64,000 nt of DNA from Phascolarctobacterium sp. GTDB taxonomy: Bacteria; Bacillota; Negativicutes; Acidaminococcales; Acidaminococcaceae. Of this stretch, positions 55,715 through 62,981 are shown piece by piece. The stretch is taken from assembly GCA_030523325.1 (NCBI GenBank), contig JAUNIS010000008.1, positions 1-64,000 of the forward strand, read 5' to 3'. Both the position numbers and the translations under genes were made by a program. Each line of letters starts with the position of its first letter. Within the stretch, counting starts at the first letter, position 1. The notes beneath the pieces are model-generated. The model was not told where the DNA came from. It was given only the letters and a program-made list of their open reading frames with translations, and searched no databases.

Positions 55715-56089
55715 TTATTTTCTTTCTTGCAAAGCAATGAGAAAATTTTGAACTAACGTCTCAGAATTTTTTAGGAGAATGTTTATTTCTTCTTTACTCG
55801 CTCCATCTAAATGAAGCCCTGCACTTACCGCTATCGGTCTGCCCACAACCTTACATATTGCGAGTGCTACTCGTGAAGCAGGAATATCATCTCTATGTCC
55901 CGGGACTGTTAGTACGCTAACGGAAGCTGTTACTCCTTCATTTGTTGGTGGGCAAGGCATTGCCAAGGCTACAGCACCAATATGGACGATGCCTGCGGTA
56001 AGAAGTATCTGTAGATCATCGCCAACTGGTGTAACTTGCATCGTGACCTGTGTTCGCCCTGTCCCTGCGACAAATTTACCTTCAACCAT
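55715..56089 (-). CDS. lpdD: LpdD-like UbiD-associated protein
   Basis: About 124 residues. GRTQVTMQVTPVGDDLQILL, AGIVHIGAVALAMPCPP and VPGHRDDIPASRVALAICKV match the small D subunit found in gallate-type decarboxylase operons, which is thought to help load or carry the prenylated flavin. It starts at 56089 behind AAGGGAG; the longer form to 56134 lies inside ubiX. It overlaps ubiX by 8 bp. The assignment rests on remembered family patterns plus context. Confidence 0.65.
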   Translation of the reverse strand: MVEGKFVAGTGRTQVTMQVTPVGDDLQILLTAGIVHIGAVALAMPCPPTNEGVTASVSVLTVPGHRDDIPASRVALAICKVVGRPIAVSAGLHLDGASKEEINILLKNSETLVQNFLIALQERK

Positions 56090-56654
56090 TTTGTACTCCC
56101 TTCCAAGCTTTAAAGTTTGGCAAATTAATACCAAATTGCATCAAAGCTTTACCAAGAATGTGATCAATGTGGTCCTGAATGCTTTGTGGTTTATTGTAGA
56201 AGGTTAAAACTGGAGGAACAATTGTACAACCAAGCTCGTTTGCCGCAAGTAAGTTGCGCAAATGCACGCGGCCTAAAGGCATCTCACGAGGCACTAAGAC
56301 AATCTTGCGATTTTCTTTCATGCACACATCGGCTGCTCGTTGCAAAAGATTATCCGTATAACCACTTGTTAATGCAGCCAAGGATTTCATACTGCATGGT
56401 ACGATAAGCATTCCCTCGGTAACAAATGAACCACTGGCAATTGTTGCCGCCATGTCATCTGACTCGTAAACAAAATCGGCTAGAGCTCGTACCTCGTCAG
56501 GAGTTTTGTCTCCTTCTATGAGTAAATTTTTTTCTGCGGAAGGAGTCATCACTAAATGAGTCTCCACGTCTTCAATTTGTTTAAGCAGTTCCAGTAGTCT
56601 TACGCCAAGACAAACTCCGTCGGCCCCAGACATACCAATAATTAATTTTTTCAT
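56082..56654 (-). CDS. ubiX: Flavin prenyltransferase
   Basis: 190 residues. UbiX attaches dimethylallyl to FMN, giving the prenylated cofactor for UbiD. The start IIGMSGADGVCLGVRLLELL, VPCSMKSLAALTSGYTDNLL and LVPREMPLGRVHLRNLLAA are typical, though GADG replaces the more usual GASG. First gene of the operon, about 40 bp after the T-box terminator. Confidence 0.93.
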   Translation of the reverse strand: MKKLIIGMSGADGVCLGVRLLELLKQIEDVETHLVMTPSAEKNLLIEGDKTPDEVRALADFVYESDDMAATIASGSFVTEGMLIVPCSMKSLAALTSGYTDNLLQRAADVCMKENRKIVLVPREMPLGRVHLRNLLAANELGCTIVPPVLTFYNKPQSIQDHIDHILGKALMQFGINLPNFKAWKGVQNG

Positions 56655-56695
56655 TTTTCCTTACCTTTACAAAATTTTGACTTGTTTTACAAAAC

Positions 56696-56721
56696 AAAAA
56701 AGCCCTTGATATAAATCAAGG
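56696..56721 (-). terminator. T-box terminator ahead of ubiX
   Basis: CCTTGAT (minus, 56721-56715 arm) pairs with the 56710-56704 arm around a four-base loop, followed on the minus strand by six T. It is the off-state of the T-box leader. Confidence 0.9.
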
Positions 56722-56977
56722 ACAGATAATCAAAATACCTGCGGTACCACCTTGCTTCACTGCCTCACGCAGTGCAACTTTAGCAGAATGCCAACACATT
56801 CCTCACCCTTAACGCAGATGCTACGTTGTAGAATACTCTCCTCAAAGGATTTGACTACACCCTCAACGGTCCATTTGCCGGCCTGCATTTCTATCTGGAT
56901 TACACCACCCCAGACTCTCTGTAAGCGCACGCTCCGGTTTGATCTCCGTATCAACAGTTTGTGGTCGCTATGAAACT
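56722..56977 (-). ncRNA. T-box leader upstream of ubiX-lpdD-ubiD
   Basis: The minus strand carries the hallmark T-box AAGGTGGTACCGC (56739-56753), the Stem I motif AGAGAG followed by a GGGGTGGTGTAATCC distal loop near 56897-56920, and a downstream terminator. The acceptor-binding bases are TGGT, which would pair with a tRNA ending ACCA. The specifier loop probably lies in AAATGGACC near 56867-56876, where ATG or TGG could be read; I cannot settle it. T-box leaders open when an uncharged tRNA binds, so this decarboxylase operon should respond to lack of an amino acid. Confidence 0.88.
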
Positions 56978-56983
56978 GATGTG

Positions 56984-57012
56984 ATTTTATAACCTCTTTT
57001 TTAAAATGTCAA
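56984..57012 (-). promoter_or_regulatory. Promoter of the T-box / ubiX operon
   Basis: On the minus strand TTGACA (57012-57007), a 17-bp spacer and TAAAAT (56989-56984), just ahead of the T-box. Confidence 0.8.
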
Positions 57013-62615: not shown

Positions 62616-62628
62616 ATTTTTCATAAAG

Positions 62629-62981
62629 ATGAGTGATCAATAAGCCGAGTTCTGTTCCTCTTACGAGGTGATAATCATTTATCTAGACTTGACATTACTG
62701 CCAAGTTCAAGCGACGCAACCCGGGAGGCTCAGCGGGCAACATCATCCCTCCCCTATTTGGTCTTGCTCCGGATGGGGTTTACCTAGCCAGCCTGTCACC
62801 AGACTGCTGGTGCGCTCTTACCGCACCGTTCCACCCTTACCTACAAAAGTAGGCGGTCCTCATTTCTGTGGCACTAGCCCTAAGGTTTCCCTCGCTGGAC
62901 GTTATCCAGCATCCTGCCCTATGGAGCTCGGACTTTCCTCACCTGGCTCTAGGCCAGCCGCGATTATCTTTCACACTCACC
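62629..62981 (-). ncRNA. rnpB: RNase P RNA, type A
   Basis: The minus strand shows the conserved core: GAGGAAAGTCCGAGCTCC near the 5' end, AGGGTGGAACGGTGCGGTAA in the middle, and ACAGAACTCGGCTTAT at the 3' end. The ends pair (GAGTG/CACTC, P1). The length of about 353 nt is normal. It processes tRNA precursors. It has its own promoter and terminator. Confidence 0.95.

Follow-up and report, generated by a model that had tools for sequence, protein, structure and literature searches.

The window analyzed here, a stretch of 64,000 nucleotides from Phascolarctobacterium sp. (assembly GCA_030523325.1, contig JAUNIS010000008.1, positions 1-64,000), poses a puzzle: Why is an operon for a UbiD-family decarboxylase preceded by a T-box, and which amino acid does that RNA sense? 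An earlier note had described a promoter, a T-box core and a terminator followed by ubiX, lpdD and ubiD, and this description is borne out by the Rfam, Pfam and NCBIfam matches (Table 1). The coordinates given there, 56082-57012, hold for the leader and ubiX, but the remainder of the operon extends to 54313.

Table 1. Features of the ubiX operon, whose elements all lie on the minus strand of the window, and of other RNAs mentioned in the text (window positions unless a locus is named).
Feature	Position	Strand	Evidence
Promoter	57012-56984	-	TTGACA (-35), 17-nt spacer, TAAAAT (-10); 11/12 consensus match
T-box leader RNA, Stem I to antiterminator	56963-56715	-	RF00230, 71.9 bits, E 1.1e-15, model 1-219/219
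Specifier triplet UGG (Trp)	56873-56871	-	TGG inside CAAATGGACC, as RNA AAAUGGACC; Rfam alignment, invariant in 25 leaders
T-box core AAGGTGGTACCGC (= AAGGUGGUACCGC)	56753-56741	-	Sequence; bulge UGGU predicted to pair with the 3' end of the tRNA, its U facing G73
Intrinsic terminator hairpin GUCCUUGAU-UUAU-AUCAAGGGC, then U6 (TTTTTTG)	56723-56702	-	-12.4 kcal/mol, z = -5.3
ubiX, flavin prenyltransferase, 190 aa	56654-56082	-	Pfam PF02441; NCBIfam TIGR00421 and PRK06029 over cut-off
lpdD, prFMNH2-binding chaperone, ~124 aa	about 56089-55715	-	Pfam PF21758; internal ATG start; 8-nt overlap with ubiX
ubiD, probable indole-3-carboxylate decarboxylase, 445 aa	55650-54313	-	Pfam UbiD N/core/C; TIGR00148; AnInD best PDB match
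RNase P RNA, bacterial class A	62626-62979	-	298.8 bits
T-box before DcuC/YfcC-family transporter, window's genome (L016/L050)	G000:C72:35899-36136	-	UGG, UGGC
T-box before SBF-family gene, G091 (L160/L265)	L160:5281-5536		Specifier resembles AUU
T-box diverging from ubiD-trpB T-box, G076	L261:7849-8078	-	130 bits

Judged by its sequence and predicted folds, the ubiX leader is a complete T-box with promoter, antiterminator and terminator. Its score lies under the RF00230 gathering score of 93 bits, and a default scan of the whole window missed it; six others among the 18 T-boxes of this genome also score below that value. When 25 homologous leaders are aligned, compensatory changes occur at 28 of the 68 consensus pairs, and this covariation indicates that the T-box call is not a chance match. 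The antiterminator, CAAGG-[UGGUACC]-GCAGGUA...UAUCUGUCCUUG, is predicted to fold with the 7-nt bulge UGGUACC, and because it shares GUCCUUG with the terminator the two predicted folds are mutually exclusive. The leader therewith has the features of a Trp-class T-box: a full-length covariance match, a specifier, a UGGN bulge and exclusive antiterminator and terminator. Promoter-like matches around the leader are as numerous as expected from shuffled sequence, so that it is the position of the promoter that supports it.

The amino acid is identified by the specifier and by the genes that related leaders control. The specifier had previously been left as ATG or TGG, with a lean away from Trp on the grounds that a TGGT motif calls for A73 while bacterial tRNA-Trp usually carries G73. 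Fitting the leader to the Rfam T-box model, as had been proposed for fixing the specifier, places UGG in the specifier position (register CAA-A-UGG-A-CC), and AAATGGACC is invariant in all 25 aligned leaders. The same UGG/UGGU leader, with AAATGGACC and AAGGTGGTACCGC unchanged, is found in 29 relatives, where the gene on its 3' side, wherever readable, is trpE, trpD or trpB. The premise about the discriminator base is correct here: the tRNA-Trp(CCA) of the window's genome has G73, as does tRNA-Trp in 29 other genomes examined, yet the matching leaders all carry UGGU. The lean away from Trp nevertheless fails, since these UGGU leaders precede trp genes and a U opposite G73, as a wobble, is documented for 46% of Trp T-boxes in TBDB (PMC7778990). 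A methionine switch, with AUG as the specifier, would draw on the AUG one base upstream of UGG and on the A73 of this genome's tRNA-Met, which fits the U of the bulge. We rejected it as extremely improbable: the register yields UGG, the U:G73 pair is frequent among Trp T-boxes (PMC7778990), and an identical specifier region and bulge govern trpE, trpD or trpB in relatives, so that this reading would demand a Met switch on family-wide trp operons. The ubiX leader is thus, by sequence comparison, almost certainly regulated by Trp. Three further Trp leaders in the window's genome, all with UGGC, precede trpDCFBA, a DcuC-family transporter and trpB2.

What does a Trp-responsive decarboxylase act on? 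The best PDB match of the window UbiD is AnInD of Arthrobacter nicotianae (7p9q; 382 bits, 44% identity over the full length), followed by the enzymes HmfF (307 bits) and AroY (184 bits); against the VdcC model it scores 239 bits, with a cut-off of 650. The E-R-E triad of the UbiD family is conserved (R150, E256, E261). An identity of 44% is insufficient to fix a UbiD substrate. D164 corresponds to AnInD D169, at the indole N-H. According to the AnInD report, Asp169 binds the indole N-H and its variants are severely impaired (PMC8988006). Asp occupies this position in all relatives at least 52% identical to the window UbiD; at the same place the HmfF sequence is gapped and that of AroY has Ala. 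In a maximum-likelihood tree AnInD joins the 52-row clade of the window UbiD (support 100/98), apart from HmfF and AroY, with AnInD and AroY both on long branches. Taken together, similarity, this one diagnostic residue and the logic of the operon suggest that the window UbiD probably decarboxylates indole-3-carboxylate to indole. The LpdD product matches the LpdD structures 8p4w/8pzh weakly (E 0.09), and its GHRD motif is consistent with the His-x-Asp metal site described for LpdD (PMC10865409).

Scanning 85,000 species genomes gave 67 loci, and of 380 Negativicutes genomes that were scanned 15 proved UbiD-positive. In 10 of these 15, UbiD is linked to Trp: its gene adjoins trpA, trpB or trpB2, lies behind a Trp T-box, or both, in four different gene orders. 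In Succiniclasticum and near kin (G054, G047, G030) a Trp T-box is followed by trpD-C-F-B-A, ubiD-ubiX-lpdD and usually trpB2; the strain Succiniclasticum ruminis DSM 9236 has the full order trpDCFBA-ubiD-ubiX-lpdD-trpB2. Within the Succiniclasticum group, G044 has a similar order with no lpdD or trpB2 called, the locus of G058 begins within trpA, and G053 has trpB-A-ubiD-ubiX-lpdD-trpE-G. Elsewhere the order is T-box, trpB-ubiD-ubiX-lpdD (G087) or T-box, ubiD-trpB (G091 and G076), to be compared with T-box, ubiX-lpdD-ubiD in the window's genome. The T-boxes of G091, G087 and G076 all have the specifier UGG and score 102.6-116.5 bits.

These loci also bear on the position of UbiD in the pathway. 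The enzyme might act on some other acid upstream of indole, such as a precursor of anthranilate, and so serve TrpD in genomes that lack trpE; trpD-C-F-B-A is indeed retained and trpE missing in Succiniclasticum and in the window's genome. We consider this distinctly unlikely. The substrate of TrpB is indole, and trpB is the sole trp gene accompanying ubiD in G087, G091 and G076, so the product there must be indole if both enzymes act in sequence. The Asp that contacts the indole N-H is moreover conserved, and we know of no acid precursor of anthranilate for a UbiD enzyme.

The linkage is recurrent rather than universal: the UbiDs of several close relatives (L143-L145, L147, L148) have no adjoining trp genes, and in the tree the window UbiD groups more closely with relatives lacking trp neighbours than with the UbiD of Succiniclasticum. 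Judging from this position, the link to Trp probably arose, or was retained, on more than one occasion. The T-box core motif was not found beside other LpdD relatives, in a search covering short loci of the first 100 genomes. Two more distant loci deserve mention. In Tectomicrobia (L188), a trpB2-like gene is immediately followed by the gene of a UbiD that has Glu in the position of the indole-binding Asp and may use another substrate; we excluded this linkage from the Trp argument because its whole subclade has Glu at the position of Asp164. In Spirochaetia (L157), ubiD-ubiX-lpdD lies between an aminotransferase gene and iorAB-like genes (indolepyruvate:ferredoxin oxidoreductase; the alpha-subunit-like protein scores under its curated cut-off), a setting that points to the metabolism of aryl or indole acids.

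The leader was also compared with those of the genus. In the same-genus genomes G001 and G002, trpEGDCFBA lies behind an equivalent leader; each of G001, G002 and G004 has one UGGU leader, before trpE where the gene is visible. The single UGGU leader of the window's genome precedes ubiX, and the trpE leaders of the genus are ~75-79% identical to it in DNA. Over the 255 nt that precede ubiX, the closest ortholog of the operon (G006/L137, UbiD 91% identical) shows no T-box: local alignment of the ubiX leader gives 31 for this region versus 306-316 for the trpE leaders. Neither trpE nor any chorismate-binding enzyme was found in the window's genome, whose completeness of ~92.6% leaves the absence unproven; aroC (chorismate synthase) is present. 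We read these comparisons as indicating that a trp leader came to control the decarboxylase, through either loss of trpEG or rearrangement. Some of the genomes being MAGs, a misassembly at the leader-ubiX junction is a remote possibility, although the window's genome yielded no second, near-identical copy of the ubiX leader.

The same evidence raises the question of whether the capture was neutral, that is, whether a trp leader left over or duplicated after trp genes were lost or moved simply had an unrelated decarboxylase, for phenolic or other aromatic acids, land behind it. The T-box-free operon of G006 would fit such a history, as would the trpE leaders of genus mates, which make a rearrangement likely. 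We regard it as unlikely, because members of this UbiD clade also occur with Trp T-boxes and trp genes in three or more further lineages whose gene orders differ, the leader is intact with a conserved core, and the nearest solved relative of the enzyme is an indole-acid decarboxylase. A functional connection of the decarboxylase to Trp remains the preferred reading.

The distribution of trpE is less uniform than a simple replacement would predict. Within the family, trpE is present in 1 of 8 UbiD-positive and 30 of 51 UbiD-negative genomes (Fisher p = 0.02, uncorrected for ancestry or incompleteness). Loss of trpE as a general rule was rejected, since most UbiD-positive genomes from other families retain the gene; that several do so means that UbiD is not simply a replacement for trpE. 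Many fairly complete Acidaminococcaceae genomes have no trpE match (G007, G021, G022, G024, G031-G033 and G051), and several of them have a Trp leader directly before trpD or trpB, suggesting that reliance on anthranilate or indole from outside is widespread.

In the window's genome a Trp T-box precedes a DcuC/YfcC-family transporter, a candidate importer of Trp or a Trp precursor. Just upstream of the ubiD-trpB T-box of G091, another T-box, whose specifier looks like that for Ile and not Trp, controls a protein of the sodium/bile-acid-symporter family (SBF), and in G006 an SBF gene lies just downstream of ubiD. The divergent T-box of G076 precedes a 383-aa membrane-like protein without a Pfam match.

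From these elements a mechanism can be proposed. With tRNA-Trp charged, the leader would fold the terminator and ubiX-lpdD-ubiD would be off. Under Trp starvation, uncharged tRNA-Trp would pair at two sites, the anticodon CCA binding UGG in the specifier and the GCCA end binding UGGU in the bulge through a G73:U wobble, so that the antiterminator would form and the operon be transcribed. UbiX would then make prenyl-FMN, LpdD would deliver it, and UbiD would convert indole-3-carboxylate to indole, the final Trp precursor, which TrpB, or the TrpB2 that has its own Trp T-box in this genome, would join with serine to give Trp. In the trpE-less genome of the window, this route would amount to Trp salvage. 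Overall, we consider it likely that the Trp T-box switches on an indole-3-carboxylate decarboxylase operon that supplies indole to TrpB, although the direction of the reaction and its physiological role are, like the substrate, putative. The earlier suggestion that the substrate or product of UbiD is tied to an amino acid is most likely right.

Parts of this scheme have known counterparts. The leader resembles the Trp T-boxes of trp operons (RF00230; PMC7778990) in its Stem I, UGG specifier, UGGU opposite G73 and antiterminator/terminator, but it precedes ubiX-lpdD-ubiD instead of trp genes. The enzyme shares with AnInD (PDB 7p9q) the features given above, but its gene belongs to an anaerobe, is accompanied by lpdD and stands behind a Trp T-box, whereas AnInD needs no LpdD; the available part of the AnInD report contains no link to Trp synthesis (PMC8988006). 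The combination of ubiX, a small accessory protein and ubiD recalls the LpdD/LpdC gallate decarboxylase (PMC10865409 for LpdD) and the bsd/vdc hydroxyarylic acid decarboxylase operons, but the window UbiD lies on the AnInD side of the tree and not with AroY. Bifidobacteria convert exogenous indole to Trp by TrpB (PMC11085991), whereas here the indole would come from indole-3-carboxylate through a dedicated, Trp-regulated decarboxylase. In the open-access literature that was searched we found no relevant paper joining a T-box with UbiD, nor one joining an indole-3-carboxylate decarboxylase with Trp biosynthesis. The RNA belongs to an established type; what seems to be new in that literature is the assigned pathway, together with the apparent passing of a trp leader to a decarboxylase operon.

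More tentatively, indole-3-carboxylate could be a regulated source of Trp, through UbiD and TrpB, in several Negativicutes of gut and rumen, replacing anthranilate synthase in some; in the window, the leader that serves trpE in genus mates would now serve the decarboxylase. Such a role would give biological meaning to a type of UbiD known from structural and biochemical work, and would connect the chemistry of prenyl-FMN with the nutritional supply of amino acids. It leads to the prediction that bacteria of gut and rumen can draw on indole-3-carboxylate for Trp synthesis. The case further illustrates that the specificity of a T-box can be used to assign substrates within the UbiD family, where they are hard to predict.
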